Below the pieces are notes generated by a model. That model saw only the letters and a program-made list of their open reading frames with translations, was not told the DNA's origin and made no database searches. DNA of 64,000 bases from Duganella sp. BuS-21 (GTDB lineage: Bacteria; Pseudomonadota; Gammaproteobacteria; Burkholderiales; Burkholderiaceae_D): assembly GCA_041874725.1 (NCBI GenBank), contig CP097466.1:1178001-1242000 (forward strand), read 5' to 3'. Positions 19,027-35,132 of this stretch are shown here, one piece after another (position 1 is the stretch's first letter; each line of letters opens with the position of its first letter). The translations under genes were made by a program, and so were the position numbers.

Positions 19027-19562
19027 AGCGCTTCATCGTACCGCTGGGCGTATTCATTGCGCTGCTGGGATTCCTGTGGGTGGGCCTGCGGTTGAATCCG
19101 CGCGAGGTGCCGTCGCCATTGATCGGCAAGCCGGCGCCGGCGTTCGCGCTGACGCAGCTGCATTTGCCCGAGCGCCGCATCGGCACGGCCGATATGGCGG
19201 GGCAGGTATGGATATTGAATGTGTGGGCTTCGTGGTGTGTGGCTTGCCGCCAGGAGCATCCGCTGCTGATGGAAATGGCGCGCATGAAGCTGGCGCCCAT
19301 CGTTGGGCTGAATTACAAGGACGGGCGCGACGACGCCATCGCCAACCTTCGGCAGGCTGGCGATCCTTATATGGTGTCGGCGTTCGACCAGGATGGCCGG
19401 GTTGGCATCGACTATGGCGTGTATGGCGTGCCGGAGACTTTTGTGATCGACAAGCGCGGCGTGATCCGCCACAAGCAGATCGGCATTTTGACGCCGGAGG
19501 TGATGACTCGCACCATCGTGCCGCTGATTGAAAAGTTGAACAAGGAGAGCGGCAATGGTTAA
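19023..19562 (+). CDS. ccmG: Thiol:disulfide interchange protein CcmG/DsbE
   Basis: A 179-residue membrane-anchored thioredoxin-fold protein. The redox motif is WASWCVACRQEHP, and the cis-Pro loop is in GVPETFVIDKRG. It reduces CxxCH cysteines of apocytochromes before heme attachment. The start ATG at 19023 overlaps the ccmF stop. Confidence 0.95.
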   Translation: MKRFIVPLGVFIALLGFLWVGLRLNPREVPSPLIGKPAPAFALTQLHLPERRIGTADMAGQVWILNVWASWCVACRQEHPLLMEMARMKLAPIVGLNYKDGRDDAIANLRQAGDPYMVSAFDQDGRVGIDYGVYGVPETFVIDKRGVIRHKQIGILTPEVMTRTIVPLIEKLNKESGNG

Positions 19563-19995
19563 GTGGATTGCCGCTTTGCTGATGGTGTTGGCCTGCGGTG
19601 CGCAAGCCAGCGAGGATCTGGACAAACGCGCGGCGGCGCTGGAGGAAGAGCTGCGCTGCCTGGTGTGCCAGAACCAGACCATCGCCGATTCGCACGCCGG
19701 TTTGGCGTCGGATTTGCGGCGCGAGGTGCGCGAGCAGCTGGCGCAGGGCAAGTCGGAGCAGGAGGTGCTGGATTTTATGGTGCAGCGTTATGGCGATTTC
19801 GTGCTGTATCGGCCGCCGGTGAAGAGCAGTACCTGGTTGCTGTGGTTCGGGCCTTTTCTGTTGGTGGCGGCCGGCGCGTTGTTGCTGATTTCGCGCTTGC
19901 GCGCGGCGCGGACCCGCGTCGCCGGAGTGCAGCCGTCCGAACAACAATTGCAACGCGCTCGCGCGCTGCTCGATAACGACAAGGAGCAGCCATGA
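19555..19995 (+). CDS. ccmH: Cytochrome c maturation protein CcmH
   Basis: A 146-residue protein with a signal peptide, the redox motif LRCLVCQNQ and one C-terminal helix (STWLLWFGPFLLVAAGALLL). The TPR part found in fused CcmH proteins is a separate gene here (ccmI, next). CcmH handles apocytochrome thiols together with CcmG and CcmF. Confidence 0.95.
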   Translation: MVKWIAALLMVLACGAQASEDLDKRAAALEEELRCLVCQNQTIADSHAGLASDLRREVREQLAQGKSEQEVLDFMVQRYGDFVLYRPPVKSSTWLLWFGPFLLVAAGALLLISRLRAARTRVAGVQPSEQQLQRARALLDNDKEQP

Positions 19996-21224
19996 ACGGC
20001 TTCGTATTCGCCGCCGCTGTGATGTGCGCGCCGGTCCTGTGGCTGCTTTTGCGTCCCTTGCTGTCGCGCCGCGACATGACCGCCTCGCCGCAGGCCGATC
20101 AACTGAACCTGGCCGTGCTGCGCGACCAGTTGCGCGAACTGGATGCGGACCGCGAGCAGGGCAGCATCGATCCCGAGGCCTACGCCGCCGCCCGCCGCGA
20201 GCTCGAACAGCGCGTCACCGAAGATGTGCATCCGGCCACGCGGCCTGCCGCAGCAGCGTCGCCGGCCTTGCGCTGGCAGGCTGCCGTGGTGTCGGTCGCG
20301 CTGGTCGCCGGTGCGGCAGGTCTGTACGCCACTCTCGGCACGCCGCGAGCTCTGGTCACGCCCGACGCCGCGCCTGCGGTGACCGGGCAGGGCCTCGATC
20401 CGCACACCAGCACCGAAGCGGAAGCGATGGTCGCCAAACTCGCCGAGCGCATGGCGCGCGAGCCGCAGGACCCGAACGGCTGGGCGCTGCTGGCCCGCTC
20501 CTACAGCGCCATGGGCCGCTTCGTCGCCGCCAGCGGCGCCTACGCGCGCCTGGTCGCGCTGATCCCTGACGACGCCCAGATTCTGGCCGACTACGCCGAC
20601 GTACTGGCCATGACGCAGAACCAGAAACTGGACGGCGAGCCGGAACGCCTGCTGGCGCGCGCCCTGGCGGCCGACCCTAAAAACGTCAAAGCCTTGATTC
20701 TGTCCGGCGACGCCGCCTTCAGCCGCCAGGACCACGCTACCGCCGCGCTGCGCTGGCAAGCCGCCCTGGCCAACGCCGCCCCCGGCTCGGAATTCGCCCA
20801 AATGGCGCGCGACAACCTGGCCCACCTTGGCGCGCCAAGCGTAGGCCCGGCATCAGCGACTGCCCCGGCCCCGGCTGCCGCTGGCGCTGCCGCCGTCAGC
20901 GGCAGCCTCGAACTCGATCCCGCGCTGCGCGACCAGGTCTCGGACACCGACACCGTCTTCATCGTCGCCAAAGCCGCCGACGGCCCGCGCTTCCCGCTCG
21001 CCGTGCTGCGCAAGCAGGTGCGCGACCTGCCGCTGCGATTTACGCTGGACGACAGCATGGGCATGATGCCCGACGTGAAACTGTCGCAGTTCGACAAGCT
21101 GATCATCACCGCCCGCATCTCCAAATCCGGCAACGCCATCGCCGCGCCGGGCGATCTGGAATCGACGCCACAGTCCGCGAAACCAGGCGATGCGTCGATA
21201 CAGTTGCGTATACGCCCCAAATGA
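19992..21224 (+). CDS. ccmI: Cytochrome c maturation TPR protein CcmI
   Basis: A 410-residue protein. Two N-terminal helices enclose a short cytoplasmic coiled region (LNLAVLRDQLRELDADREQG). Periplasmic TPR repeats follow (NGWALLARSYSAMGRF and the repeats after it), then a C-terminal beta domain. It binds apocytochrome C-termini. It is the last gene of the ccm operon and overlaps ccmH by four bases; the multiheme operon begins 130 bases downstream. Confidence 0.92.
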   Translation: MNGFVFAAAVMCAPVLWLLLRPLLSRRDMTASPQADQLNLAVLRDQLRELDADREQGSIDPEAYAAARRELEQRVTEDVHPATRPAAAASPALRWQAAVVSVALVAGAAGLYATLGTPRALVTPDAAPAVTGQGLDPHTSTEAEAMVAKLAERMAREPQDPNGWALLARSYSAMGRFVAASGAYARLVALIPDDAQILADYADVLAMTQNQKLDGEPERLLARALAADPKNVKALILSGDAAFSRQDHATAALRWQAALANAAPGSEFAQMARDNLAHLGAPSVGPASATAPAPAAAGAAAVSGSLELDPALRDQVSDTDTVFIVAKAADGPRFPLAVLRKQVRDLPLRFTLDDSMGMMPDVKLSQFDKLIITARISKSGNAIAAPGDLESTPQSAKPGDASIQLRIRPK

Positions 21225-21244: not shown

Positions 21245-21299
21245 AGTTTAATAGTGTTAAACTGCAAGAACATAGTTAACTATTTGTAATCATAGTTAA
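21245..21299. promoter_or_regulatory. Palindrome cluster upstream of the multiheme operon
   Basis: The AT-rich 130-base gap holds AGTTTAA-N5-TTAAACT (21245-21263, perfect arms), the 12-base palindrome ATAGTTAACTAT (21272-21283) and a third ATAGTTAA half-site (21292-21299). No T-tract follows, so a regulator-binding region for the downstream operon is the best reading. No known FNR or ArcA consensus was recognised. Confidence 0.55.
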
Positions 21300-21354
21300 A
21301 TAATCAGACACCAGCCCACCGCCAGAAGTCGCATTTATGTTGCAAGAGAATTTC

Positions 21355-22155
21355 ATGTCATTCCAGCGCTTTCGCTACGCCAAGTGGGCCATAGTCCTGC
21401 TGGCGGCGTGCATCGCGCTGTACGCCGCCGACAACCCGCCGATCAAACCCGGCGGCGGCACCATCCTCGGTTACGTGCTTGGCACCTTGGGCGCGCTGCT
21501 GATCTTGTTCTTGCTGCTGCTCGGCGTGCGCAAGCGCGCCTATGCTTCGCGCATGGGCACACTGCGCGGCTGGCTGTCGGCCCACGTCTACCTCGGCCTC
21601 GCGCTGGCGGTGGTGGCGACGCTGCACAGCGGCTTTGAATTCGGCTGGAACATCCACACCTTCGCCTACGCCCTCACCATGGCCGTCATCATCAGCGGTA
21701 TCTGGGGCGTGGTGCTTTATCTATACCACCCGTCGCTGATGGGCGACCTGCTCGACGGCCGCACGCTGGACCAGATCGCGCAAGACCTGCGCGACCTCGA
21801 CGACCGCTGCCGCATGCTGGCGCAAGGCCGCCCGCCGATGCTGCTGGCGCTGGTGGAGGAATCGGCCGCCTGCGCGATCTTCAATAAACGCCGCCAGCGC
21901 CTGACTGGCCGCAACCGTCAATGCGCCACCACGCGCGTGCTGAAGCGGCTGCGTGAAGTGGGCGACCAGGCCGACCCCAACGCGAACGAAATCTACACCC
22001 TGCAATTCCGTCGCCTGCAACAGCTCAAACGCATCCGCTCCTTCGTCCGACTGCGCACGCTGACGGAAATCTGGCTCCTGTTCCATGTACCGATGTCGAT
22101 CGCACTGCTGGTCGCGCTGACCGCGCACATCGTCTCGGTTTTCTTCTACTGGTAA
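21355..22155 (+). CDS. Membrane di-heme-type cytochrome b-like protein
   Basis: A 266-residue protein with about five hydrophobic helices. His77 and His91 sit in one hydrophobic region, and His244 and His258 in the last; both pairs are 14 residues apart. His101 is an extra candidate. Such spacing fits transmembrane b-heme ligation and a quinone-linked role. A cytoplasmic basic loop of ~110 residues (KRRQRLTGRNRQCATTRVLK) separates the two halves. The start is taken at 21355 (AAGAGA upstream); the ATG at 21337 is possible. First gene of a seven-gene operon. Heme binding is inferred from His placement only. Confidence 0.7.
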   Translation: MSFQRFRYAKWAIVLLAACIALYAADNPPIKPGGGTILGYVLGTLGALLILFLLLLGVRKRAYASRMGTLRGWLSAHVYLGLALAVVATLHSGFEFGWNIHTFAYALTMAVIISGIWGVVLYLYHPSLMGDLLDGRTLDQIAQDLRDLDDRCRMLAQGRPPMLLALVEESAACAIFNKRRQRLTGRNRQCATTRVLKRLREVGDQADPNANEIYTLQFRRLQQLKRIRSFVRLRTLTEIWLLFHVPMSIALLVALTAHIVSVFFYW

Positions 22156-22161
22156 TCGCTT

Positions 22162-23610
22162 ATGCAATCTCGTAACAACGATAAGCTCCAGAAGGAGATC
22201 GATGCGCTTCAACGTCCGCTGGTCGGACGGCGGGGCATGTCATGGCTACTGTTCGTGCTGGTGCTGCTGGGCGCCCTGGTGTTGCCGGTGCTGGCATCGG
22301 TATGGCCGGACGTCTTCCATCCGGTGGAGGAGACGGCCGTTAAGCTGCGCAAGACGCCGGCGCAGGCGCCGGTGCTCAACCACGCCTATGTGCGGGCTTC
22401 GCCGACGGCGCTGGGACTGGACGCGCAATGGAATCCCGGCACGCTGTCGTCATCGCACCAGCCTTTTGGACTGGACTGCAAGTCCTGCCACTCCAAGCCG
22501 TTCCAGCAGGTGCAGGACAAGGACTGCCTCGCGTGCCATCGCGGCATCGGCAATCACGTGGCCGACAAAGTCGCCTCGATGCCGGCCCTGCACGAAACGC
22601 GCTGCGCCACCTGCCACCGTGACCATCAGGGGCCGGAGGGACTGGTATCGCAGAATCGTCGCTACATCGGCGCCGGTTGCGCGTCCTGCCATGCGGACCT
22701 GGAAAGCAAGTTGCCCGGCACGCAGGTGGCCGACGTCAAGGACTTCGCCAAGGCGCACCCGCAATTCCGCGTGCAGGTTGCCGCTTCCGAGACCACTTTC
22801 GTGCGACTACGCCAAGGTAGCCAGGCGATTGGCCAGGCCAACACGCTCAAGTTCCCGCACGATAAACACCTGGCCGTGGGCGGCATCGCCGGGCCGGAGG
22901 GCAAGACCAGGCTGGAATGCGCAAGCTGCCATCGTCCGACCCAGAGCGGCGTTGGTTTCGAGCGGGTGAGCATGCAGCGCGACTGCCAGTCCTGCCACGC
23001 GCTGGCGTTTGAGCCGGCGCTGTCGCAACGGCAGGTGCCGCATGGTGCGCCGTCCGAGGTGCTGTCCACGCTGCGCGAGTTCTACGGCTACGTTAATGGC
23101 AGCAAGGTTGCCATCGATACGCCGCCGGCCAGCGGGCCGGTGTTCACGGTACGTCCCGGCATGCCGGAGCGTGCGCCCGCCAGTTTTGTGCAAGGCCCAG
23201 GCGATGCGCGCGCACGCGCCGCCGCTGCCGCGACTGAGTTGTTTGAGAAGACTTCGTGCATCACCTGTCATGAAGTGAGCCGCGTGCCGGGTCCGGGCAA
23301 GGCGGGGACGCCGGGTGCGGATCTGCCGCAGTGGAAGATCGCGCCGGTTACGCCGTCGCATCCTTGGATGCCGAAGGCTGGATTCGATCATGCCGCGCAC
23401 CGGCAGGCGCCTTGCGCCGATTGCCATCTGGCGGCCAAGTCGAGCAAGTCCAGCGACGTGCTGATGCCGACCATTAAAGAGTGCCGCGATTGTCACGGCG
23501 GCACGGAGCCGGTGGTCGGCAAGGTGAAGTCGGATTGCGCGATGTGCCACGGTTATCACATGCCGGATCTTCACACGGCGGCGAAACCGGCGAAGGCGAT
23601 GAAGCCATGA
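22162..23610 (+). CDS. Membrane-anchored decaheme cytochrome c
   Basis: A 482-residue protein with one N-terminal helix (SWLLFVLVLLGALVLPVLAS, about residues 30-50) and a periplasmic domain with ten CxxCH motifs: CKSCH, CLACH, CATCH, CASCH twice, CQSCH, CITCH, CADCH, CRDCH and CAMCH. It probably takes electrons from the cytochrome b encoded six bases upstream and carries them across the periplasm. The next gene overlaps its stop by four bases. The heme count is direct; electron direction is inference. Confidence 0.88.
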   Translation: MQSRNNDKLQKEIDALQRPLVGRRGMSWLLFVLVLLGALVLPVLASVWPDVFHPVEETAVKLRKTPAQAPVLNHAYVRASPTALGLDAQWNPGTLSSSHQPFGLDCKSCHSKPFQQVQDKDCLACHRGIGNHVADKVASMPALHETRCATCHRDHQGPEGLVSQNRRYIGAGCASCHADLESKLPGTQVADVKDFAKAHPQFRVQVAASETTFVRLRQGSQAIGQANTLKFPHDKHLAVGGIAGPEGKTRLECASCHRPTQSGVGFERVSMQRDCQSCHALAFEPALSQRQVPHGAPSEVLSTLREFYGYVNGSKVAIDTPPASGPVFTVRPGMPERAPASFVQGPGDARARAAAAATELFEKTSCITCHEVSRVPGPGKAGTPGADLPQWKIAPVTPSHPWMPKAGFDHAAHRQAPCADCHLAAKSSKSSDVLMPTIKECRDCHGGTEPVVGKVKSDCAMCHGYHMPDLHTAAKPAKAMKP

Positions 23611-25568
23611 GCGCGGGGGAAAAGGCGAAGCCACTATCCCTGGCCCTGGGTCAGACCCTTTTGTTCGGGGTGATGGTGGCGTTGTTGGCAGCATGCAGCG
23701 GTGGCGGCAGCACTGTGGTACCCCCTGTCGCGCCGACCAACAGCAGCTGCTTTACCCCCGCCGCCACCCCGCAGTCGATCACTGCTGCCGAAGTGGAGCT
23801 GGTGCTGGCGCAAGGCGCGGAGGCCGCGTCCAAATTGGGCGCCAAGGCCACCCTGGCCGTGGTGGACCGCGCCGGCAACGTGCTGGCCGTGTACCGCATG
23901 ACCGGCGCCGGCACGACCGTGAATATCCTCAGCGGCAGCGGCAAGAACAGCGCCGACAGCCCGCAAGGCCTCGATGGCCTGAGCGGCTTGATCGGCTCCG
24001 ACCTGGCGGCCGTGGCCAAAGCATTGACAGGCGCCTACCTGTCCTCGTCCGGCAACGCCTTCAGCACCCGCACCGCCAGCTTCATCGTGCAGGAGCATTT
24101 CGTGCCCGGCATCGCGCAGACCGCAGGCGGTCCGCTGTTCGGCGTGCAGTTCAGCCAACTGCCTTGCGGCGATCTGGTTCAGCGTGGCGCCGGCGTCGGC
24201 GTCGGGCCGAAGCGCTCGCCGCTGGGACTATCGGCCGATCCGGGCGGCTTCCCCTTGTATAAAAACGGCCGCGTGGTCGGCGGCGTCGGCGTGATCGCGG
24301 ATGGCGTGTACGGCCTCGATCCCAACCCGACCACCAGCGGTGCGGACCTCGACGAACGCATCGCCTTGTCGGCGCAAAGCGGCTTTGCCGCGCCGGATTG
24401 CATCCGAGCCGACCGCATCACTGCCGGTGGCGTGACCCTGACCTACGCTAACGCGGCTTCCTCACCGGTGCCGGTGACGGCCAAGCGTATCGGTGACCTG
24501 GCTGCCGGTCCTGCCGGCGGCCTGTTGGCGGTGGACGGTTACTACGACGGTGCGGCCATCCTGGCCGGCGTGGCATTCGGCGAACCGGCTTCCGGCTTCG
24601 TCGCGCAGGGCAGCACACAGATACTGGTCAACGCGGCGCAGGGCAATCGCTATCCGGCCAGCGCTTCGCTGTCGCCGACGCCGGTGGCTTCCGGCGGCGC
24701 CGGCATGAGCGCGGCCGAGGTGCAGGAATTGTTGTCGCAGGCCTTGGGCGTGGCGGCGCAGGCGCGCGCGCAGATCCGCATACCGGTAGGTTCGGCGGCC
24801 GAGGTGACGGTGTCCATCGTGGATGCGGGCGGCCATGTATTGGGCCTGGCGCGCAGCGGCGATGGTCCGGTGTTCGGCGTGGACGTGTCCTTGCAAAAGG
24901 CGCGCACGGCGGCGTTCTTCTCGTCCGCCGGGGCGTCGGCATCGTTGTCGGCCTTGCCGCAGCTGGGCTACTTCAATGGCTCGCTCAAGCAGGGTGCTTT
25001 GTTCGGCATCGATGGCTACATGGCTGGTTCGCGCAGCTTGTTTGCCAATGGGGCCGCGTTCAGCGACGGCGTGGCGTTTTCGGCGCGCGCGATCGGCAAT
25101 ATCGCGCGACCCAATTTCCCGGATGGGATAGATGGCAATCCTGCCGGGCCGTTGTCCAAGCCTGCCGCCACCTGGAGTCCGTTCAACGTCGGCCTGCAGC
25201 TGGATCTGGTGTATCCATCCCTGGTGGGTGCAATCTTGGCGCCGGCATCGGCCAACCGCAGCTGCACCGGCAATCCCATTGGGCTGGAAAATGGCATGCA
25301 GACTTTCCCTGGCGGCTTCCCGATTTATCGCGGCGCGACCTTGATCGGCGCGATCGGCGTGTCCGGCGACGGCGTCGATCAGGATGACATGATCGGCATG
25401 CTGGGCGTGTCGCGCGCGGCGACCGCGCTCAAGACCGGCATCGGCCACGCGCCGGCTGCACGCCGCGCCGATACGCTGGCGCCGCTGGGCCGTCACCTGC
25501 GCTATGCGCAGTGCCCGCAGGCGCCGTTCAACAATAGTACAGAGCAGAGCGTGTGCGATGGCATATAG
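23607..25568 (+). CDS. Lipoprotein with two GlcG/HbpS (heme-binding) domains
   Basis: A 653-residue predicted lipoprotein (lipobox LLAAC, mature part from Cys at about residue 31). Two domains show the GlcG/HbpS pattern: one from about residue 53 (AAEVELVLAQGAEAASKLGA, then LAVVDRAGNVLAVYRM) and one from about residue 367 (SAAEVQELLSQALGVAAQA, then VSIVDAGGHVLGLARSGD). HbpS proteins bind heme, so storage, delivery or redox sensing for the cytochromes is plausible. A dispersed repeat (23648-23672) encodes part of the signal peptide. The start ATG overlaps the decaheme stop and the 3' end overlaps the next gene by eleven bases. Confidence 0.78.
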   Translation: MSAGEKAKPLSLALGQTLLFGVMVALLAACSGGGSTVVPPVAPTNSSCFTPAATPQSITAAEVELVLAQGAEAASKLGAKATLAVVDRAGNVLAVYRMTGAGTTVNILSGSGKNSADSPQGLDGLSGLIGSDLAAVAKALTGAYLSSSGNAFSTRTASFIVQEHFVPGIAQTAGGPLFGVQFSQLPCGDLVQRGAGVGVGPKRSPLGLSADPGGFPLYKNGRVVGGVGVIADGVYGLDPNPTTSGADLDERIALSAQSGFAAPDCIRADRITAGGVTLTYANAASSPVPVTAKRIGDLAAGPAGGLLAVDGYYDGAAILAGVAFGEPASGFVAQGSTQILVNAAQGNRYPASASLSPTPVASGGAGMSAAEVQELLSQALGVAAQARAQIRIPVGSAAEVTVSIVDAGGHVLGLARSGDGPVFGVDVSLQKARTAAFFSSAGASASLSALPQLGYFNGSLKQGALFGIDGYMAGSRSLFANGAAFSDGVAFSARAIGNIARPNFPDGIDGNPAGPLSKPAATWSPFNVGLQLDLVYPSLVGAILAPASANRSCTGNPIGLENGMQTFPGGFPIYRGATLIGAIGVSGDGVDQDDMIGMLGVSRAATALKTGIGHAPAARRADTLAPLGRHLRYAQCPQAPFNNSTEQSVCDGI

Positions 25569-27585
25569 AACCACGCTCGCTCTCGGCGCGACTACAGTGC
25601 TGGTCGCCGCCGCCGCGCAGGCAGCACCTCTCCAGCAGCTGCAGGTGCTGGCCGTCACGGTGCCGGTGCGCGCCGAGCCGTCGGTTCGCGCGCTGCCGCT
25701 GGCCGAGTTGTCGCGCGGCGCTGTGGTCGCCATTCTTGAACAGCGCGGCGACTGGTACAAGGTCGCCGTGGACGGCCAGCGCGCCGGCTGGGTACAAATG
25801 GCGCCGGCCGAATACGATGAAATGACCATCGAAGTGTTCAATGCTGCCGCCGGCGCGGCGGTAGCCGCCGCAGCTAGTGCGGACGACGATGGCGCCGGCC
25901 GGCCCGGCATCACGCCAGCACGTCCCGGCGCGACCGCCGGCGTGCCGCAACTTGCCGTGGTGCCGACTATCGATCCCCTGCAAGTACCGCCGCCGCAAGC
26001 GCACTTGCCGCGCGAGTCGATCTCCGTGCCGGACCGCTGGCGTCTGATGCAAACCCTGGGTTTCAAATTTCCATGGTACGACCCGTATAACCAGAACGCC
26101 TTGAAGGCCGATCTGCCGGTGCTGCAGCAATACGCGCCGGACCTGTTCTTCAACCTCGGCGTGGTCTCGGACTCGCTGCTGGAACTGCGCCGCCTGCCGA
26201 CGCCGGTGTCCGGCCAGATCGGCATCGCGCCCGGCGCCAACGACATTTTCGGCCGTGGCCAGCAAACGATCATGGTGCAGAACCTGATCCTGAACCTGGG
26301 CCTGAGCAAAGGCGACACCACCTTCCGTCCGCCGGACTATGAGTTTCGCTTTGTCCCGGTGTTCAACTTCAACCGCGTGATGGTGGAGGAAGCCGGTGCG
26401 TTGCGCATCGACCCTTCGCTGGGCAAGCGCCGCAATGACAATTTCGTCGGCGTTCAGGAGCTGTTCGCCGATATTCACCTGCGCAACGTCTCCGACCGCT
26501 ACGATTTCGACAGCCTGCGCGTGGGCGTGCAGCCGTTCACCAACGACTTCCGTGGTTTCCTGTTCCAGGACTCGCCGTTCGGCGTACGTCTGTTCGGCAA
26601 CCGCGACAATAATCGCTGGCAGTACAACATCGCCGCCTTTGCGCGCTTTGAGAAAGACAGCAACAGCGGCTTGAACGCCGTCGGTAAAGGCCTGCGCCAC
26701 GACCAGATCTATCTGGCCAACCTGTATCGACAGGATTGGCCGTTCATCGGTTTTACCTCACAGGCCAGCGTGGTCCACAACCGCAACTCGGAAACCGAGA
26801 AGGCCTACGACACCAACGGTTTCCTGGTACGCCCGGCTTTCCTCGGCGACCTGCGTTCGCACCGCTACCACGTCACCTATCTCGGCTACAGCGGCGACGG
26901 CCATATCGGCGCTTGGAACCTGGCCACATCGACCTACCTGGCGCTGGGCCACAATGAGCACGATCCGCTGGCGCACACATCGCAGAAAATCCGCGCCGGC
27001 TTCCACGCCAGCGAACTCTCGCGCGACTTCAGCTGGATACGCGCGCGCGCCTCGCTGGTGCTGGCTTCCGGCGACAAAGACCCCTACGACAACAAGTCCA
27101 CCGGCTACGACGCCATCATGGAAAACCCGCAGATCGCCGGTTCGGACACCAGCTTCTCGATCCGCCAGAACCTGCCGCTGATCGGCGGCGGCGGGGTGGC
27201 GCTGTCGGGCCGCAATGGCATCCTGCCGTCGCTGCGTTCGTCCAAGGACGAGGGTCAGTCCAACTTCGTCAATCCCGGCCTGGCCTTGATCGGCGTCGGC
27301 GCGGATCTGGACCTGGCGCCGGAACTGCGCGTATTCGGCAACGTATCGTATTTGCGCTTCATGGACACCCGCGTGTTGGAAGTGCTGCGCGCGCAGGCAT
27401 TGCCCTCGAAAGAGATGGGCATCGATTTCTCGGCCGGCATGCACTGGCGGCCTTTCTACAACCAGAACGTAATCATCAACAGCTCCGTCGCCGCCCTGCG
27501 GCCCGGCAAAGCGCTCAAAGCCCTGTATGGCGAGAAGCAGGGCACGCTGTATTCCGTTTTATTCAACATGGTACTGAGTTTCTGA
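25558..27585 (+). CDS. SH3b domain protein with predicted outer-membrane beta-barrel
   Basis: A 675-residue exported protein (signal peptide ending AAQAAP). Residues ~25-90 form a bacterial SH3 domain (VRAEPSVRALPLAELSRGAV, then GDWYKVAVDGQRAGWV). The rest has alternating polar/apolar strands with many aromatic residues and ends LYSVLFNMVLSF; the terminal Phe is typical of BAM-inserted barrels. Size and neighbours recall the MtrB/PioB-type porin that houses a multiheme cytochrome, but no sequence relationship is shown. It overlaps the HbpS-like gene and precedes the LVIVD cytochrome by one base. Confidence 0.65.
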   Translation: MAYRTTLALGATTVLVAAAAQAAPLQQLQVLAVTVPVRAEPSVRALPLAELSRGAVVAILEQRGDWYKVAVDGQRAGWVQMAPAEYDEMTIEVFNAAAGAAVAAAASADDDGAGRPGITPARPGATAGVPQLAVVPTIDPLQVPPPQAHLPRESISVPDRWRLMQTLGFKFPWYDPYNQNALKADLPVLQQYAPDLFFNLGVVSDSLLELRRLPTPVSGQIGIAPGANDIFGRGQQTIMVQNLILNLGLSKGDTTFRPPDYEFRFVPVFNFNRVMVEEAGALRIDPSLGKRRNDNFVGVQELFADIHLRNVSDRYDFDSLRVGVQPFTNDFRGFLFQDSPFGVRLFGNRDNNRWQYNIAAFARFEKDSNSGLNAVGKGLRHDQIYLANLYRQDWPFIGFTSQASVVHNRNSETEKAYDTNGFLVRPAFLGDLRSHRYHVTYLGYSGDGHIGAWNLATSTYLALGHNEHDPLAHTSQKIRAGFHASELSRDFSWIRARASLVLASGDKDPYDNKSTGYDAIMENPQIAGSDTSFSIRQNLPLIGGGGVALSGRNGILPSLRSSKDEGQSNFVNPGLALIGVGADLDLAPELRVFGNVSYLRFMDTRVLEVLRAQALPSKEMGIDFSAGMHWRPFYNQNVIINSSVAALRPGKALKALYGEKQGTLYSVLFNMVLSF

Positions 27586-27586
27586 C

Positions 27587-30500
27587 ATGAAGGCGTTTAA
27601 ACACATCCTCGCACTGGCGCTGCTGCTGATGGCCGCAGCGGCGGTCTCGCTGGTGAGCGCCAATTCCACGGCGGTCGTCAGCCTGCGCCAGTACATCATG
27701 GCGCCGGCAGCACCCGCCGCGCAAACCGAGCAGCAGGCCGATGCCAAAACTTCGGGATGCCTGAGCTGCCACACCACGACCGACCGCCACACCATGCACG
27801 CCAATCCCGGCGTGGTGCTGGGCTGTACCGACTGCCATGGCGGCAATGCCTCCGTGGTCGGCGAAGGTAAGCCGGATAGCCCGGCTTACCGCTCCGCGCA
27901 AGACGCCGCGCACATCCTGCCGCGCAACGAGAAATATTGGCAGTATCCGTCGTCGGCCAATCCGCAAGGCTCCTACGCCAAGCTGAATCAGGAACATCCG
28001 GCCTACGTCCGCTTCATCAATCCGGGCGACCTGCGCGTGGCGCGCGACGCTTGCGGCGCCTGCCACCTGCCCATCATCCAGGCGCAGGAACGCAGCCTGA
28101 TGGCGACGTCCGCCATGCTGTGGGGCGGCGCCAGCTACAACAACGGCATCTTGCCGTACAAACGCTACATCCTGGGCGAGTCCTACACGCCGGAAGGCGC
28201 GGCGGCGGCCATCGTCAATCCCTTGCGCGTGGACCAGCAGCTGTTTGTGGAAAAGGGCATCCTGGATCGCCTGTATCCGTTGCCGGCGTGGGAAACCATC
28301 GCCCCGGCCGACGTGTTCCGCGTGTTCGAGCGCGGCGGCCGCGTGATCGGCAGCCAGTTCCCGGAGGTCGGTTTGCCGAACGGCTCTGGCACGCTGCAGA
28401 AGCTCGATGAGCCGGGCCGTCCGGACATCCACCAGTCGAACCGCGGTCCCGGTACCGGCGGACGCATCGCCGTCCCGGCCATCAACATCACCAAGACGCG
28501 GTTGAACGATCCGCACCTATGGTTCCTCGGCACCAATGAGCAGCCGGGCGATTACCGTTCTTCCGGCTGCACATCCTGCCACACCATCTACGCCAACGAC
28601 CGCGATCCGCTGCACTCCGGTCCTTACGCGGCGGCCGGCAACAGCGGCATGAGCCAGACCGCCGATCCGACCATACCGAAGAACCGTTCCGGCCATCCGA
28701 TCAAGCACGAATTCACGCGCGCGATTCCGTCGTCGCAGTGCATGACCTGCCATATGCACCAGCCGAACATCTTCGTGAACTCGTTCTACGGCTACACCAT
28801 GTGGGACTACGAATCGGATGCGCCGTCGATGTGGCCGAAGAAGCAGAAGTATCCGACCGACGCCGAGATCCGCACCATCCAGGCGCGCAACCCGGAAGAA
28901 GCGGCGATACGCGGCAACTGGAGCGATCCGGAATTCCTGAAGAACGTCTCCAAGCTGAATCCGACTCTGAAGGACACGCAGTTCGCCGACTATCACGGCC
29001 ACGGCTGGAACTTCCGCGCCATCTACAAGCGTGACCGCAAGGGCGCGCTGCTGGACAAGACCGGCAACATCATCGACGACAACGATCCGGACAAGTTCAA
29101 GAAAACCGTGCACCTGGCTTCTATCCACATGGAGAAGGGCATGCAGTGCGTGGACTGCCACTTCTCGCAGGATGCGCACGGCAATGGTCACATCTATGGC
29201 GAAGTGGCGGCGGCGATCGAGGTCGATTGCATCGACTGCCACGGCAGCGCCTCCAAGTATCCGACCTTGCGCACCAGCGGCCCTGCCGCCAAGCCGGGCG
29301 GCATGGACATGTCGCTGCTGAAAACGCAGGACGGCCGCCAGCGCTTCGAGTGGCGCGAAGGCCGCTTGTTCCAGCGCGCCGCCACCGATCCGAAGAAGGA
29401 ATGGGAAGTCAGCCTGGTGAAGGATTCCGTCAATCCGGCCAATCCGCACTACAACGAGAAGGCTGCGCGCGCCAAGTTGATGAGCGCCGGGCCCGAAGGC
29501 CAGCAGGGCAAGTGGGGACCGGGCGTCGGCAAGCTGGCGCACGACAACGACAAGATGAGCTGCCACAGCTGCCACCTGTCCTGGACCACCAGCTGCGCCG
29601 GTTGCCATTTGCCGATCCAGGCCAACTGGAAGACGGAACGCCTGCACTACGAGGGCGGCGAATCGCGCAACTACGCTTCCTATAACCCGCAGGTGGCGCG
29701 CGACGACATGTTCCAGCTGGGCGTGGCCGGCCCGGTCAAGGGCTCGAAGATTACGCCGGTGCGTTCCAGCTCCGCGCTGGTGCTGTCGTCGGTGAACGCC
29801 AACCGCGAGAAGATCTATATCCAGCAACCGCCGATTGCCGCCAGCGGTTTCTCGTCGCAGGCGTTCGCGCCGCACTATCCGCACACGGAGCGCAAGGAAG
29901 AGACCAAAACCTGCTCCGACTGCCACGTCTCCAAGGCCAACGATAACAACGCCATCATGGCGCAGTTGCTGCTGCAAGGGACCAACTTCGTCAACTTCGT
30001 CGGCTACAACGCCTGGATCGGCGAGGCCGGCCACGTGGAAGCGGCTACCGTCACCGAGTGGGACGAGCCGCAGGCGGTGAAAGGCAGCTATCTGCAGCGC
30101 TACGCTTATCCTGACTGGTACGAGCAGCACAAAGACCGCAAGATGGAGCTGACCGAAACGCACTCGCATCCAACCGACGGCGCGGCCAACTGCCTGCAGT
30201 TGCGCGGCGAGTATTTGTTCACGGCGGAAGGCAAGGGTGGCTTGCGCGTGTACGACGTGGCCAGCATCGCCAACAAAGGCATCTCGCAGCGCATCGTCAC
30301 TGCGCCTTATTCGCCGCTGGGCCAGAACACGCAGGTGAAGTCGAAGGACGCGACCTGCATGGCACTGCCGACCAACCAGCCGATCGCGCCGACACGCAAT
30401 ATGGGCGACTTGATGCGGGTGACCAATCAGGAGCAGGCTTTCCATCCGATCTATCACTACGCCGTCATCAGCGATGCGCAGGAAGGCCTGATCCTGGTAA

Positions 30501-31348
30501 ACGTCGACACGCTGGCCGACGGCGAGGCGCGCAACAACTTCCTCAAGCGCGCACTGACATGGAATCCCAACGGCCTGCTGAACGGCGCGCAGCACATCGT
30601 GCTGGGCGGGCATATCGCCTACATCGCCGCCGATGCCGGCATGGTGATCGTTGACCTGGACGACCCGCTCAAGCCGCGTCACCTGGCGACCGTGGCGCTG
30701 AACGGTGCGCGCGCTTCGGCGCTGCAGTTCCGCTACCTGTTCGTGACCGACAAGAGCGGCCTGCGCGTGATCGACGCGACGCTGCCGGCCAAGCCGGTGC
30801 TGCTGCCGGGCGGCGTGGCGCTGGCCGATGCGCGCAAGGTCTACCTGGCGCGAACCTACGCCTATGTGGCGGCGGGCAAGCAGGGCCTGGCCATCATCGA
30901 TATCGAGAAGCCGGCGGCACCCAAGGTGTACCAGATGTTCGACGCCGATGGCCAGTTGAACGACGCACGCGACATCATCGTCGGTTCCACCAATGCTTCG
31001 CTGTTCGGCTACGTCGCGGACGGCGCCAATGGACTCAAGGTGCTGCAGCTGACCGCACCCGATACGCAGCCGCGCTTCTACGGCTTCTCGCCGGAACCGA
31101 AGCCGCAGTTGATCGCCTGGAGCCGCACGCGCACGCCGGCGCTGGCGCTGTCCAAAGGTCTGGACCGCGACCGCGCGGTCGATGAAACGGGCGGCCAGAT
31201 TGCCGTATTCGGCCGCATCGGTTCGCGTCCGTTCAACGCCGCCGAGATGGCGAAACTGTATTTGCGGCCGGATTCACAGGTATGGACTGTGAGCGACCAG
31301 GGTGTGCCCGGCGACTATGTGCCGCGCACCCAGAAAGGAAAGAAATGA
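27587..31348 (+). CDS. Decaheme cytochrome c with C-terminal LVIVD repeats
   Basis: A 1253-residue exported protein (signal peptide MKAFKHILALALLLMAAAAV). The first ~790 residues carry ten CxxCH motifs: CLSCH, CTDCH, CGACH, CTSCH, CMTCH, CVDCH, CIDCH, CHSCH, CAGCH and CSDCH. The last ~400 residues contain LVIVD-type repeats (GGLRVYDVASI, AGMVIVDLDDPLKPRHLA, SGLRVIDATLPAKP, QGLAIIDIEKPAAP, NGLKVLQLTAP), which form a beta-propeller in relatives. It is a candidate for the outermost electron carrier or a redox enzyme. Substrate unknown. The next gene overlaps by four bases. Confidence 0.85.
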   Translation: MKAFKHILALALLLMAAAAVSLVSANSTAVVSLRQYIMAPAAPAAQTEQQADAKTSGCLSCHTTTDRHTMHANPGVVLGCTDCHGGNASVVGEGKPDSPAYRSAQDAAHILPRNEKYWQYPSSANPQGSYAKLNQEHPAYVRFINPGDLRVARDACGACHLPIIQAQERSLMATSAMLWGGASYNNGILPYKRYILGESYTPEGAAAAIVNPLRVDQQLFVEKGILDRLYPLPAWETIAPADVFRVFERGGRVIGSQFPEVGLPNGSGTLQKLDEPGRPDIHQSNRGPGTGGRIAVPAINITKTRLNDPHLWFLGTNEQPGDYRSSGCTSCHTIYANDRDPLHSGPYAAAGNSGMSQTADPTIPKNRSGHPIKHEFTRAIPSSQCMTCHMHQPNIFVNSFYGYTMWDYESDAPSMWPKKQKYPTDAEIRTIQARNPEEAAIRGNWSDPEFLKNVSKLNPTLKDTQFADYHGHGWNFRAIYKRDRKGALLDKTGNIIDDNDPDKFKKTVHLASIHMEKGMQCVDCHFSQDAHGNGHIYGEVAAAIEVDCIDCHGSASKYPTLRTSGPAAKPGGMDMSLLKTQDGRQRFEWREGRLFQRAATDPKKEWEVSLVKDSVNPANPHYNEKAARAKLMSAGPEGQQGKWGPGVGKLAHDNDKMSCHSCHLSWTTSCAGCHLPIQANWKTERLHYEGGESRNYASYNPQVARDDMFQLGVAGPVKGSKITPVRSSSALVLSSVNANREKIYIQQPPIAASGFSSQAFAPHYPHTERKEETKTCSDCHVSKANDNNAIMAQLLLQGTNFVNFVGYNAWIGEAGHVEAATVTEWDEPQAVKGSYLQRYAYPDWYEQHKDRKMELTETHSHPTDGAANCLQLRGEYLFTAEGKGGLRVYDVASIANKGISQRIVTAPYSPLGQNTQVKSKDATCMALPTNQPIAPTRNMGDLMRVTNQEQAFHPIYHYAVISDAQEGLILVNVDTLADGEARNNFLKRALTWNPNGLLNGAQHIVLGGHIAYIAADAGMVIVDLDDPLKPRHLATVALNGARASALQFRYLFVTDKSGLRVIDATLPAKPVLLPGGVALADARKVYLARTYAYVAAGKQGLAIIDIEKPAAPKVYQMFDADGQLNDARDIIVGSTNASLFGYVADGANGLKVLQLTAPDTQPRFYGFSPEPKPQLIAWSRTRTPALALSKGLDRDRAVDETGGQIAVFGRIGSRPFNAAEMAKLYLRPDSQVWTVSDQGVPGDYVPRTQKGKK

Positions 31349-32700
31349 AAAGGATGCTGTCCGCCTGCCTGATGCTGGCCTGCGGGCTGGTGCTGGCCGC
31401 CAGTTCGTCCACCACGCCTTTGCTTCCCAACGCTTCGCCGCACCAGTCGGTGGGCACGGTTAACTGCGCCAGCAGTACCTGCCACGGCGCCGTCGCCCCA
31501 TGGACCGGCTCCAATGTGCAGCAGGACGAGTACACCACCTGGCTGCGGCTGGACAAGCACGCCAAGGCCTACGCCATCCTGCTGAACGCCCAGTCGCGCT
31601 CCATCGCCGCCAAGCTGGGACTCAAGCAGGGCGCCGAGAATGCGCAGGAATGCCTGGACTGTCACGCGCATACGCCGCCGCCGGCGCAGCGCGGCGAGCG
31701 TCATATGGTGACGGACGGCGTGGGCTGCGAAGCCTGCCACGGCCCGGCCGATAAATGGATACGCTCGCACACAGCACCCGGCGCCACCCATGCCGACAAC
31801 GTCGCCAAGGGCATGTACCCGACCGAGAAGCCGGTGGAGCAGGCGAAGTTGTGCCTGTCCTGCCACGTCGGCGACAGCAGCCGTTTCGTCTCGCACCGCT
31901 TGATGGGCGCAGGCCACCCGCGCCTGAGTTTCGAGCTGGACACCTTCGCCCAGCTGGCGCCGGCGCACTACAAGGTCGATGACGACTGGCGCAAGCGCAA
32001 GGGCGACTACGACAGCGTGCGCCTGTGGGCCATCGGCCAGGCGCTGGCGTCGAAGAACCAGCTCGATGCGCTGACCGATCCGAAACGCGGCCGCGACGGC
32101 CTGTTCCCGGAACTGGCGCTGTTCGATTGCCACTCCTGCCATCACCCGATGAGCGAGAAGAAGTGGACCCCGCGCCTCGGCGTCGGACCGGGCCGCATGC
32201 GCCTGAACGACAGCAATCTGCTGATGCTGCGCGCCATCGTACGCGCCACCGATCCATCCGGCGCGAATGCGTTCAGCGACCAGGTGGCGAAGCTGCACCT
32301 GGCGGTGTCGGGCAATCCCGGCGATGCCGGTCGCGGCGCCGACCCATTGGTGCTGGCCGCCGGGCTGTCTGCCAGTATTCAGCGCTATATCGGCAAGCTG
32401 GAACAGCAGCGCTTCACGCCGGCCTTGCAACGCGCGGTGCTGGCGGGCCTGATCGATGAAGCCAAACGCCAGCAGTTTTCCGACTATGCCGGCGCCGAAC
32501 AGGCTTACATGGCGATTTCCAGCGTGTCGTCCGCGCTGGCGCGCGAGGGCGCGCTGGGCGGGCCGGCCGGCGCGGCCGAGATGAACCGCAAGCTGACCGC
32601 GCTGCGCGCGTCGCTGGCGAACGAAGACGCATTCAAGCCGGACGTATTTGCGCAAGGCCTGCAAGGCCTGTCGCGCACCATTTCACTGCAGGCGAATTAA
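31345..32700 (+). CDS. Pentaheme c554-like cytochrome
   Basis: A 451-residue exported protein (signal peptide MKRMLSACLMLACGLVLAAS). It has four CxxCH motifs (CLDCH, CEACH, CLSCH, CHSCH) and one unusual Cx4CH motif, NCASSTCHG, near the N-terminus. The overall pattern, including the CEACHGPADKW region, resembles cytochrome c554/NrfA-like multiheme proteins. Its start overlaps the LVIVD cytochrome stop, and the oxidoreductase gene follows two bases after its stop. It probably works in the same conduit. Confidence 0.82.
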   Translation: MKRMLSACLMLACGLVLAASSSTTPLLPNASPHQSVGTVNCASSTCHGAVAPWTGSNVQQDEYTTWLRLDKHAKAYAILLNAQSRSIAAKLGLKQGAENAQECLDCHAHTPPPAQRGERHMVTDGVGCEACHGPADKWIRSHTAPGATHADNVAKGMYPTEKPVEQAKLCLSCHVGDSSRFVSHRLMGAGHPRLSFELDTFAQLAPAHYKVDDDWRKRKGDYDSVRLWAIGQALASKNQLDALTDPKRGRDGLFPELALFDCHSCHHPMSEKKWTPRLGVGPGRMRLNDSNLLMLRAIVRATDPSGANAFSDQVAKLHLAVSGNPGDAGRGADPLVLAAGLSASIQRYIGKLEQQRFTPALQRAVLAGLIDEAKRQQFSDYAGAEQAYMAISSVSSALAREGALGGPAGAAEMNRKLTALRASLANEDAFKPDVFAQGLQGLSRTISLQAN

Positions 32701-32702
32701 TC

Positions 32703-35132
32703 ATGGACGCTACTGAACTGTACGAGATCGTTATCGTCGGCTCCGGGCCGGCCGGCCTGTCGGCCGCCGCCCGCGCCAAGGCGCTGGGCGTGCGCCACGT
32801 GCTGCTGGAAGCGCAGCCGCACCTGTCCGACACCATCTACCAGTACCAGAAGGGCAAGCACGTGATGGCCGAACCGGGCATCCTGCCGCTGCGCAGCGAC
32901 CTGAGTTTCGGCGCTGGCAAGCGCGAGATGCTGCTCTCGACCTGGAACGAGGAGATGGGCAGCCAGGACGTCAACGTGGTGAACGGCCAACGCGTTAGCG
33001 CCATCGTGCGCGACGTCGACACTGGCGTCTTCACGCTGACCACCCAAAGCAACGGCGGCGGTGCGCTGACGTGGCGTTCGAAGGCGGTGATCCTGGCCAT
33101 CGGCCTGCAAGGAAATATCCGCAAGCTGGGCGTGCCGGGCGAAGACCTGCCGCAGGTGCAGTACACGCTGTCCGATCCGGACGAATACTCGGGCGAGACC
33201 ATCGTGGTGGTGGGCGCGGGCGACGCCGGCATCGAGAACGCGCTGGCGCTGGCCGAGAAGAATACGGTTTATATCCTGAACCGCCAGGAGGAATTCGCCA
33301 CCTGCAAGGAAGGCAACCGGGTGCTGATCATGGCCGCTGAACGCAGCGGCAAGATCAAGGTGCGCTATAGCGCTTCCACCAAGTACATCGAAACGGCGGA
33401 TGATACGCCGCTGCTGTTCGTCTTCAACGGCAAGCACGGCGAGGAATCGGTGCATGCGCACCGCGTGATCGCGCGCCTCGGCGCGACGCCGCCGCGCAAG
33501 CTGATCGAAAGTTTCGGCGTGGTGTTCCCGAACGCGAATCCTGCCTCCACGCCGGCGCTGTCGGATTCCTACGAGTCCAACGTGCCGGGCCTGTACATCG
33601 TCGGTGCGCTGGGCGGCTACCCGCTGATCAAACAGGCCATGAACCAGGGCTACGAGGTGGTGCAGACCATCGTCGGCAAGCCGGTGCAGCCGGTGGACGA
33701 GGACCTGCTGCGCGGGAAGCTGGCACCGTGGCGTCCGAACATGGTGGTGTCGCAGGTGATCGACGAGATCAAGGCCAGCGTGCCGCTGTTTAACCAGGTG
33801 ACCACGCTGCAGCTGCGCGAGTTCATGCTCGACTCGACCCTGCTGACGCCGAAGAAGGGCGACATCATCTTCCGCAAGTTCGACTACACCAACACCTTCT
33901 ATTCGATTTTGGATGGCGTGGTGGAGATCGAGCTGACCGGCAACGACGGCAAGGTGCGCCAGATTAAACTCGACAAGGGCCAGTACTTCGGCGAGATGGG
34001 CCTGATCTCCGGCCGCCGCCGTACCGCCACCATCCGCGCCGGCCAGGGTTGCGTGCTGATGGAGACGCCGCGCCGCACCATGCTCAAGCTGATCGCTTCG
34101 GTGGACGATGTGCGCAAGCGCATGGACATGGTCTTCGTGCGCAACGCGATCTACAACTACCTGGGCAATATGCTGTCGCGCACCGCCATCGATGCGCTGG
34201 TGGCCGGCGGCGTGACGGTGAAACGCTACGAGGCCAAGCAGGTGCTGTTCAAGGAAGGCGACCGCGCGGACGGCATGTATCTGATCCGTCGCGGTTCGGT
34301 GACGGTGTCGCGCAAGGACGATGTGCGCGGTGGCGAACGTGTCCTGTCGTATGTCGCCGCCGGCAATTACGTCGGCGAGATGGCGCTGCTGCGCGATGCG
34401 CCGCGCAGCGCCACGGTGACCGCTACGGTGCTGACGGAAGCGCTGGTGCTGGATGCGGAAACGGTGCGCGATCAGCTGATTGCCAATCCAAGCTGGCGCA
34501 AGTCGGTCGAGGACCAGGTGATCTCGCGCACCGAGCAGAACGTGCTGCTGGAGCACACCAAGAGCCGCGACGGCGAGTTGATGCAGTTCCTGCTGGGCCA
34601 GGGCGTGGGCGAGGCCTCCGACGTCCTGCTGATCAACGAGACCATGTGCATCCAGTGTAATAACTGCGAGACGGCGTGCGCGGAGACGCACAACGGCACT
34701 TCGCGTTTAAAGCGCGCGCTGGGGCCGACCTTCGCCAACATCCACCTGCCGACCGCCTGCCGCCATTGCGAGAACCCGCACTGTATGAAAGACTGCCCAC
34801 CGGACGCCATCGGCCGTTCGCTGCAAGGGGAAGTGTTCATCAGTGACGCCTGCATCGGCTGCGGCAACTGCGAGCGCAATTGCCCGTATGGCGTGATTCA
34901 GATGGCGGTGGACAAGCCGCCCAAGCGCGGCGGCGGTTTATCGTGGCTGCTGTTCGGCCTTGGCGCCACGCCAGGCGAGCGTCAGGCCGATTACGATCCG
35001 GCGGTGCAGAAGAAGGCCGTCAAGTGCGACCTGTGCAAGGATCTTAAAGGCGGCCCGTCCTGCGTGCGCGCCTGCCCGACCGGCGCCGCCATCCGCATCT
35101 CGCCGGAGAAGTTCTTCAAGAACCAGGTGTAG
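32703..35132 (+). CDS. FAD oxidoreductase fused to two cNMP-binding domains and a four-cluster ferredoxin
   Basis: An 809-residue cytoplasmic protein with no signal peptide. Residues ~1-330 form a thioredoxin-reductase-like FAD/NAD(P)H module (IVGSGPAGLSAAARAK and VVVGAGDAGIENALALAE), but the CxxC redox pair is absent. Two cyclic-nucleotide-binding domains follow (about residues 370-490 with GQYFGEMGLISGRRRTATI, and 500-615 with GNYVGEMALLRDAPRSATVT). The C-terminal ~170 residues hold four [4Fe-4S] motifs: CIQCNNCETAC, CRHCENPHCMKDC, CIGCGNCERNC and the CDLCKDLKGGPSCVRAC set. It probably links NAD(P)H to the membrane cytochrome. Its 3' end overlaps the convergent S9 gene by 17 bases. Confidence 0.88.
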   Translation: MDATELYEIVIVGSGPAGLSAAARAKALGVRHVLLEAQPHLSDTIYQYQKGKHVMAEPGILPLRSDLSFGAGKREMLLSTWNEEMGSQDVNVVNGQRVSAIVRDVDTGVFTLTTQSNGGGALTWRSKAVILAIGLQGNIRKLGVPGEDLPQVQYTLSDPDEYSGETIVVVGAGDAGIENALALAEKNTVYILNRQEEFATCKEGNRVLIMAAERSGKIKVRYSASTKYIETADDTPLLFVFNGKHGEESVHAHRVIARLGATPPRKLIESFGVVFPNANPASTPALSDSYESNVPGLYIVGALGGYPLIKQAMNQGYEVVQTIVGKPVQPVDEDLLRGKLAPWRPNMVVSQVIDEIKASVPLFNQVTTLQLREFMLDSTLLTPKKGDIIFRKFDYTNTFYSILDGVVEIELTGNDGKVRQIKLDKGQYFGEMGLISGRRRTATIRAGQGCVLMETPRRTMLKLIASVDDVRKRMDMVFVRNAIYNYLGNMLSRTAIDALVAGGVTVKRYEAKQVLFKEGDRADGMYLIRRGSVTVSRKDDVRGGERVLSYVAAGNYVGEMALLRDAPRSATVTATVLTEALVLDAETVRDQLIANPSWRKSVEDQVISRTEQNVLLEHTKSRDGELMQFLLGQGVGEASDVLLINETMCIQCNNCETACAETHNGTSRLKRALGPTFANIHLPTACRHCENPHCMKDCPPDAIGRSLQGEVFISDACIGCGNCERNCPYGVIQMAVDKPPKRGGGLSWLLFGLGATPGERQADYDPAVQKKAVKCDLCKDLKGGPSCVRACPTGAAIRISPEKFFKNQV

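Follow-up and report, generated by a model that had tools for sequence, protein, structure and literature searches.

A seven-gene multiheme cytochrome cluster of Duganella sp. BuS-21 as a candidate conduit from NAD(P)H to the cell exterior

A run of multiheme cytochrome genes beside a cytochrome c maturation operon raises the question of whether its products form one route for electrons across the cell envelope and, if so, where that route starts and ends. The locus was analyzed in a stretch of 64,000 nucleotides from the soil bacterium Duganella sp. BuS-21 (the window). Seven open reading frames, A to G, were confirmed on the plus strand in the expected order, spanning positions 21337-35132, with ATG chosen as the start codon throughout; gene A starts at 21337 or 21355, and both codons are kept across seven Duganella-type sequences. 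Neighboring genes are separated by gaps of 6 (A-B), 1 (D-E) and 2 (F-G) bases or overlap by 4 (B-C), 11 (C-D) and 4 (E-F) bases. The initial annotation had put every spacing at six bases or fewer, which held for all junctions but C-D, where the overlap reaches 11 because the start of D was chosen to give a signal peptide. B and E hold 10 CXXCH motifs each and F holds 4 CXXCH and 1 CX4CH, with the same counts in the Duganella relatives, and their total of 25 agrees with the earlier estimate of about 25 c-type hemes. A candidate cluster promoter, TTAACT-17-AATAAT, lies at 21276..21304 (+) and contains a perfect inverted repeat, TTAACTAT-N8-ATAGTTAA, at 21276-21299. The candidate promoter region is mostly kept among the seven Duganella-type sequences; the perfect repeat was found in 0/136 fetched loci, and promoter-like matches in the upstream region stood at chance level (2 found vs 2.4 expected).

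The predicted inner-membrane part of the cluster comprises A, B and G. Gene A (21337..22155, +) encodes a putative two-heme membrane cytochrome b, with a weak Pfam match to Ni_hydr_CYTB (21.6 bits vs a cut-off of 30.1); four histidines on two H-X13-H helices, invariant as two pairs in a 21-row alignment, are predicted to hold two b hemes. Gene B (22162..23610, +) encodes a decaheme cytochrome with an N-terminal anchor and C7/c3 cytochrome domains in Pfam, and ten CXXCH motifs occur in 32/32 relatives. An extra N-terminal FHA domain scored over the cut-off in 5 of the 9 relatives scanned and is lacking in B of the window. A and B are different open reading frames in all 28 loci holding both (among the best 80 of 122 loci matched by E). 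Gene G (32703..35132, +) combines a FAD/NAD(P) domain of thioredoxin reductase type (Pyr_redox), two cNMP-binding domains and four [4Fe-4S] motifs (Fer4), with the 16 cluster cysteines kept in 89-95% of 38 rows. G was rejected as a thioredoxin reductase, since the redox-active CXXC is absent and the flavin region holds one cysteine, kept in 52% of 27 rows. In two Acidobacteriota (L085 and L093), G and A are joined in one open reading frame, so that the two are coupled in the sequence itself. In Verrucomicrobiota, where G is without its flavin part, a NAD-binding flavoprotein of another kind occupies the place, and this looks like an exchange of the G flavin module. The fusion and the apparent replacement back the proposal of the initial annotation that electrons enter from NAD(P)H.

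The remaining four products are predicted to act farther out in the envelope. Gene C (23607..25568, +) encodes a lipoprotein with a lipobox, LLAAC, and a double HbpS/GlcG domain, matched as HbpS-like by Pfam. The product of gene D (25558..27585, +) carries a signal peptide and an SH3 domain found by Pfam, which returned no barrel family at E<=0.1; NCBIfam likewise returned no MtrB model at E<=0.01. The structure model of D is an 18-strand barrel, and its best matches in a fold search were AlgE/OprD-like, with no MtrB-type barrel among the matches listed. The MtrB barrel, with 26 strands, is larger. As modeled, the D barrel is more like the substrate channels AlgE and OprD than the cytochrome-filled MtrB. 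Gene E (27587..31348, +) encodes a decaheme cytochrome with LVIVD and C7 domains in Pfam; the fold search matched solely its C-terminal beta-propeller, which is large and conserved. D and E matched no solved structure by sequence, either singly or as profiles. Beyond its heme motifs, E holds 12 conserved extra histidines, which could serve as the second axial ligands of all the hemes, so that none would be obviously open. Its signal region has no cysteine and hence no lipobox, so that E could remain periplasmic. Three genomes carry a shorter relative with 10-12 hemes and no propeller, and the 11-14 kb of surrounding sequence contained no other CXXCH gene. Gene F (31345..32700, +) encodes a pentaheme cytochrome c with a c554-type domain in Pfam and CX4CH at the first heme; four CXXCH and one CX4CH were counted in 34 of its 43 relatives, while five of the other nine run off the sequence end and four, all Verrucomicrobiota, hold three plus one.

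We examined how these genes occur across genomes. A, E and G co-occur in the same 7 of 145 family genomes, and D is found in 6 of those 7, a rarity within the family that had been expected. E matched 122 loci, and the locus counts refer to the best 80 of these, L024 and L030 being near-copies. D lies just upstream of E (<=1.5 kb, same strand) in 73/73 testable loci, and the full seven-gene set stands together in 25/80 loci. Where the flanks reach 9 kb or more on either side (38 loci), C is present in 37 and G is absent from the flank in 18. By the phylum labels in the record titles, the D-E pair spans five phyla and the seven-gene set four. The pattern that would have refuted the initial annotation, homologues dispersed and never jointly present, was not seen; on these sequence comparisons, the seven genes are one co-inherited system, as the initial annotation had proposed. 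The all-or-none occurrence, together with the spread of the pair over five phyla and of the set over four, rules out chance clustering. A phage origin was rejected, with no phage record holding E and neither D nor E matching PHROGs, and so was a recent sweep across phyla, since the E tree keeps Verrucomicrobiota as one group. The tree (50 rows) requires 5 label changes for 5 groups, the minimum being 4, and places a Vicinamibacteria bin (L025) among Pseudomonadota; this bin and three others, one labeled Pedobacter (L032) and two labeled Moraxellaceae (L022 and L084), may be binning errors. Isolates carrying the cluster include Duganella, Sphingopyxis, Sphingomonas and Sphingobium, and we know of no metal reducer among them. 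In the accessible part of PMC8258643, Sphingopyxis is named solely in connection with acetate use. The seven-gene set is not described in the accessible parts of PMC5615132, PMC6295460, PMC8258643 and PMC5705915, and a literature search that covered few subscription papers and no preprints found no description of it.

The adjoining operon, ccmABCDEFGHI (14441..21224, +), encodes System I cytochrome c maturation. It proved complete, as had been noted: NCBIfam matched the eight genes other than ccmD, the ccmH match being to an NrfF model and below its cut-off, and a 58-codon open reading frame at 16471-16647 was named ccmD by place and look only. Its CcmF is the sole full-length, over-cut-off match in the Duganella genome. 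System II genes are also present in that genome, the only one in which ResB was sought. CcmF is present in 7/7 family genomes with the cluster (in one as a fragment) vs 28/145 over the cut-off overall. Fisher tests of E against CcmF, which ignore the kinship of the genomes, gave p = 2e-4 with 6/7 counted and p = 9e-6 once the fragment in G051 and the gene split in G118 were included. Weak ccmA/ccmI matches in L022, L042 and L060 were left out of the ccm-neighbor counts. Many other family genomes have weak CcmF matches of CcsA-like length, a hint that System II may be in wider use across the family. Since CcmF tracks the cluster in the family and System II genes are also present in the Duganella genome, the link between the ccm operon and the cluster is stronger than first stated.

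On balance, we consider that the cluster probably encodes one envelope-spanning electron-transfer chain from NAD(P)H to the outside, running over FAD, FeS clusters, b hemes and c hemes to the outer surface. In the cytoplasm, the FAD of G would oxidize NAD(P)H and pass the electrons through the four [4Fe-4S] clusters to A, whose two b hemes would move them over the inner membrane to B, a membrane-tethered decaheme protein reaching into the periplasm. We infer that F would then ferry them to the outer membrane. There, the D barrel and E, with lipoprotein C helping, would pass the electrons to an acceptor on the cell surface or outside it; the candidates are humic or small quinones, Fe(III)/Mn(IV), azo compounds and O2. 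Input may be gated by the two cNMP domains of G and, in some relatives, by the FHA domain of B, and the adjoining System I genes would supply the c hemes. Speaking against this chain are the channel-like form of the D model, the missing lipobox of E, the lack of known metal reducers among the named isolates, the likeness of A and B to CbcL and the 18 loci with no G in the flank.

Multiheme wires are reversible in principle, and the same proteins might run inward. E would then draw electrons from outside, with Fe(II), Mn(II), reduced humics or a second cell as the donor, and A/G would deliver them to a quinone or NAD(P)+. The patchy distribution and the megaplasmid location would fit such an optional trait. 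However, NAD(P)+ reduction with Fe(II)-type donors is uphill, and electrons crossing from the positive side of the membrane to the negative one work against its potential. The six Pfam-named families shared among the neighbors also include no carbon-fixation or coupling gene, and we regard inward flow as unlikely, even though the accessible part of PMC6295460 places CbcL-type proteins in Fe(III) reducers and Fe(II) oxidizers alike.

Nor need electrons leave the cell at all if E works as an enzyme, a multiheme reductase or oxidase that acts on a soluble substrate, with D as import channel and C as substrate or heme binder, the chain ending in the periplasm or at E. The substrate-channel matches of D, the HbpS/GlcG nature of C and the size and conservation of the propeller all speak for this, as does a weak local similarity of E to ExtM (NF040943) of the Ext operon, one of the selenite/tellurite operons, although its 74.6 bits vs a cut-off of 800 led us to reject E as an ExtM equivalog. 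A catalytic role is nevertheless improbable in our view, given that the extra histidines could leave no obvious open heme and that the barrel is the partner of E in all testable loci. Further, A and B resemble the quinol-linked CbcL family in type, so that quinol input is possible: A-B would be a CbcL-type quinol oxidase split over two genes, and G would act chiefly as a regulator under cNMP control or as a side entry. CbcL, in the accessible part of PMC6295460, has nine c hemes and a two-heme HydC/FdnI-like membrane part; A, for its part, has two H-X13-H pairs, with the Ni_hydr_CYTB match below cut-off, and B has ten c hemes. Against this stand the G-A fusion, the retention of the cluster cysteines of G and the other NAD-binding reductase in the flavin place of Verrucomicrobiota, and we give quinol input the smallest chance of the three.

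The preferred outward chain would apparently be an unusual and undescribed way of exchanging electrons with the surroundings. Its NAD(P)H start, its other type of barrel and its cNMP/FHA domains would broaden the mechanism and ecology of electron export, and would bring into the process bacteria that are generally taken for ordinary aerobes. More tentatively, and with somewhat less than even confidence, we propose a quinone-independent, second-messenger-gated export machine, shared by bacteria from soil and fresh water that belong to four or five phyla, in which cytosolic NAD(P)H would be linked over two membranes, with no intermediate pool, to the cell exterior. It would be a trans-envelope counterpart of NADPH oxidases or ferric reductases, and in oxic habitats it might be one origin of extracellular superoxide or of humics and metals in reduced form.

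Several known systems share parts of this arrangement. He et al. (2017; PMC5615132) described, in the accessible part of that paper, Verrucomicrobia clusters in which a novel porin with at least 20 transmembrane motifs adjoins multiheme genes, lies beside an octaheme periplasmic protein and is proposed to serve electron transfer to humics. The cluster is like these in its porin gene adjoining multiheme genes and unlike them in that E has ten CXXCH in 11/11 Verrucomicrobiota rows, in place of the octaheme protein; the comparison is with the published description, and the two may still be the same system. As in MtrCAB/PioAB, a predicted outer-membrane barrel gene adjoins decaheme cytochromes and is combined with an inner-membrane input; in contrast to them, D models as AlgE/OprD-like with 18 strands, E bears a beta-propeller and the input is probably of NAD(P)H type rather than quinol. 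To our knowledge, conduit systems added later are likewise quinol-linked. Membership of the window's proteins in MtrCAB/PioAB was rejected, the family models being below cut-off or unmatched, which bears out the initial view of a likeness to porin-cytochrome systems in type and not evidently in sequence. The MtrB/PioB barrel model (PF11854) found nothing in the whole genome, with a weak control in which 1/14 control genomes matched and none over the cut-off; the MtrA/DmsE model (TIGR03508) gave 30.8 bits for B and 21.5 for F vs a cut-off of 192.2; and the MtrC/MtrF domain II/IV model (PF22113) gave 13.6 bits for B vs a cut-off of 30, with no match to E or F. PF22113 did pass its cut-off in the B relatives of L026 and L042 (30.1) and in an extra cytochrome of L085 (51.1). 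CbcL, MtrH and MtoC combine a multiheme c part and a b-type membrane part with two hemes, and the putative two-heme A together with B recalls them in type. The family tests do not place the cluster in CbcL, since A and B are separate proteins; these lie beside a cytoplasmic FeS/cNMP protein or are joined to it. In type, with no claim of homology, the cluster resembles NADPH oxidases and ferric reductases, enzymes that pass electrons from NAD(P)H through a flavin and two transmembrane b hemes to an outside acceptor; to this scheme it would add FeS clusters, a set of 25 c hemes and the crossing of a second membrane.

The seven ORFs of the cluster lie at 21337–35132 on the + strand in the order ABCDEFG, and encode a two-heme membrane cytochrome b (A), an anchored decaheme cytochrome (B), an HbpS/GlcG lipoprotein (C), an SH3 and 18-strand barrel protein (D), a decaheme cytochrome with an LVIVD propeller (E), a pentaheme cytochrome (F), and a flavin/iron–sulfur protein (G). 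Domain scans concurred with the initial annotation on the domains, and the 25 heme motifs counted (ten each in B and E, and four CXXCH plus one CX4CH in F) matched its estimate of about 25 c-type hemes. With the best starts, the spacings from A to G were +6, −4, −11, +1, −4, and +2 bases; the claim that none exceeds six bases thus held at five junctions and failed only at C–D. E shares 92–96% identity over the best segment with six Duganella records, and the source genome is Duganella-like.

Upstream of the cluster lies ccmABCDEFGHI (System I cytochrome c maturation), and the AT-rich gap between ccmI and A holds a candidate promoter (21276–21304) mostly conserved among seven Duganella-type sequences. 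Since two promoter-like matches were observed across the whole region vs 2.4 expected by chance, a promoter of the cluster's own at this site is only a suggestion. A perfect inverted repeat, TTAACTAT-N8-ATAGTTAA (21276–21299), overlaps the candidate promoter and is kept mostly, not entirely, in relatives; it is a possible operator. Genes for a prolyl oligopeptidase-type (S9) peptidase (35116–37074) and an M28 peptidase (37713–39725) lie on the − strand, convergent to the cluster, and S9-cluster genes were also seen near it in six loci, four from Duganella and two from Sphingomonas. Further downstream, 54001–56000 has a G+C content of 52% vs about 64% in its surroundings, and is possibly a foreign stretch.

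A scan of named genomes yielded 122 relatives of E, and the other six proteins were searched by tblastn (E ≤ 1e-4) in the best 80 of these 122 loci, to which all locus counts refer. In every one of the 73 loci whose upstream flank measured 1 kb or more, D preceded E on the same strand and ended no more than 1.5 kb before it. Where both flanks extended for 9 kb or more (38 loci), 37 loci had C, 31 had F, 20 had G, 17 had A, and 17 had B; the complete set was present in 25 of the 80. The order ABCDEFG was shared by Duganella, other Burkholderiales, and Lysobacteraceae, while FGABCDE was seen in Rhodospirillales and Acetobacteraceae bins. In Sphingomonadales, FCDE opposes B-A-G with a metallophosphoesterase in between; in Acidobacteriota, C and D-E are divergent, and past C lie extra genes and G; in Verrucomicrobiota, D-E is accompanied by B, A, G, and a reductase; and D and E alone were seen in the single Planctomycetota locus. 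In all 10 Sphingopyxis genomes searched in which the flanks of E lacked G, a G protein (44–45% identity) was located outside those flanks. These varying orders, together with the G outside the flanks in Sphingopyxis, suggest that the genes form two blocks of one system, C, D, E, and F making up an outer module and G, A, and B an inner one. A shorter protein related to the heme region of E (760–860 residues, 10–12 CXXCH) occurs in three Pseudomonadota genomes (L134:6044–8425, L135:4539–6827, L136:5177–7741), with no further CXXCH gene within the stretch fetched around it.

E was found in 7 of 145 genomes of the family, after three weak partial matches, two of them to the propeller part, were dropped (G133, G113, G006). 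The same seven genomes held both G and A, and six held D, the exception being the genome with the most fragmented assembly among them. At the cut-offs used, none of A, D, E, and G was present in the seven further genomes sampled from the genus. At the level of the order, 15 of 300 genomes carried E once one weak match had been set aside; for the phylum the figure was 11 of 398, with 12 weak partial matches excluded. Because the E tree tracks phyla closely, an old origin and patchy retention of the system are probable. At least 80% of E was carried by 13 of 15 matched plasmid records (12 Sphingobium, one Sphingopyxis), and the one such plasmid inspected was typed as conjugative.

In the inner module, exactly four His residues of A were invariant in 21 sequences, forming two pairs spaced 14 residues apart within each pair, which is the arrangement predicted for the ligands of two stacked b hemes. 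G combines a TrxR-type FAD/NAD(P) domain lacking the redox disulfide with two cNMP domains and four [4Fe-4S] motifs, whose 16 Cys were kept in 89–95% of 38 aligned rows. The flavin region was filled in 27 of these rows; the remaining 11 comprise one sequence cut short (L061) and ten from Acidobacteriota or Verrucomicrobiota, and a Pfam scan of G from L085 and L094 matched cNMP and Fer4 with no Pyr_redox match. In the Acidobacteriota locus L085, the FeS/cNMP protein continues into an A-like membrane part within a single ORF, with BLAST matches to both; the same continuation was judged by eye in L093 up to the stretch end, and the stretches of L090 and L092 end before the junction point. A separate Pyr_redox and Fer4 protein lies near A in L086, and all four Verrucomicrobiota loci with G have a reductase next to it, these reductases forming one sequence cluster; the one member scanned has FAD-, NAD-, and 2Fe-2S-binding domains from a different family. 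The fusion and the apparent replacement of the flavin module make NAD(P)H the probable redox partner of A. In L085 (2082–6040), extra genes lie between G and C, in the same order as in L090, L092, and L093; three resemble additional multiheme cytochromes, and B was not found in L085.

On the most probable reading, electrons would pass from NAD(P)H through FAD, the FeS centers, and the b hemes to B, and on through F and D/E to the outside. Quinol is a possible electron input to this chain, set against the gene fusion and apparent replacement that point to NAD(P)H. Inward flow through the same chain is possible too; outward flow is favored, because NAD(P)H is a natural donor and the membrane potential draws electrons out. 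It is also possible that the proteins form an enzyme for a soluble substrate instead of a conduit. B carried ten hemes in all 32 relatives, and an N-terminal FHA domain scored above the cut-off in five of nine scanned relatives and below it in two more; the B of the window, with only about 27 residues at that position, lacks it. The cNMP and FHA domains suggest signaling control of the chain. A CHASE2-domain protein and metallophosphoesterases flank the copy on Sphingobium herbicidovorans plasmid pMSHV (L117, 1–31318), as do two ShlB/FhaC two-partner secretion genes and one very long hypothetical protein, hinting at surface structures and signaling.

The source genome has a ResB gene with an adjacent weak CcsA-like CcmF match (System II), and its single full CcmF is the window copy. 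Of the 145 family genomes, 28 had a CcmF above cut-off, including six of the seven with the cluster (the seventh, G051, holds a fragment) and 22 without it, an association unlikely to arise by chance by a statistic that ignores relatedness. Four of the seven have CcmF and A on one contig, no more than 5 kb apart (the source genome G000, G010, G020, and G035); in G121, G009, and G051 the two are on different contigs. The ccm genes adjoin the cluster in six Duganella loci (ccmF to ccmI in five, ccmI alone at a stretch end in one) and in three loci from other Burkholderiales, two of which are near-copies. From this association and adjacency, System I seems to accompany the cluster in this order, and it would load the hemes of the cluster cytochromes.

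Two relatives of B attained the MtrC/MtrF domain model, just at the cut-off, so that single cytochromes are likely to be distantly akin to that family. No account of the seven-gene set emerged from full-text literature searches. The nearest published idea in the portions available, a cluster from Verrucomicrobia that combines a porin with multiheme cytochromes and includes an octaheme protein (PMC5615132), differs by the comparison of heme counts, and the accessible part of a 2018 survey of entry points to extracellular electron transfer (PMC6295460) covers quinol-linked families only. On these comparisons, the cluster is treated as a proposed, apparently distinct variant among extracellular electron-transfer conduits and is assigned to none of the named ones.
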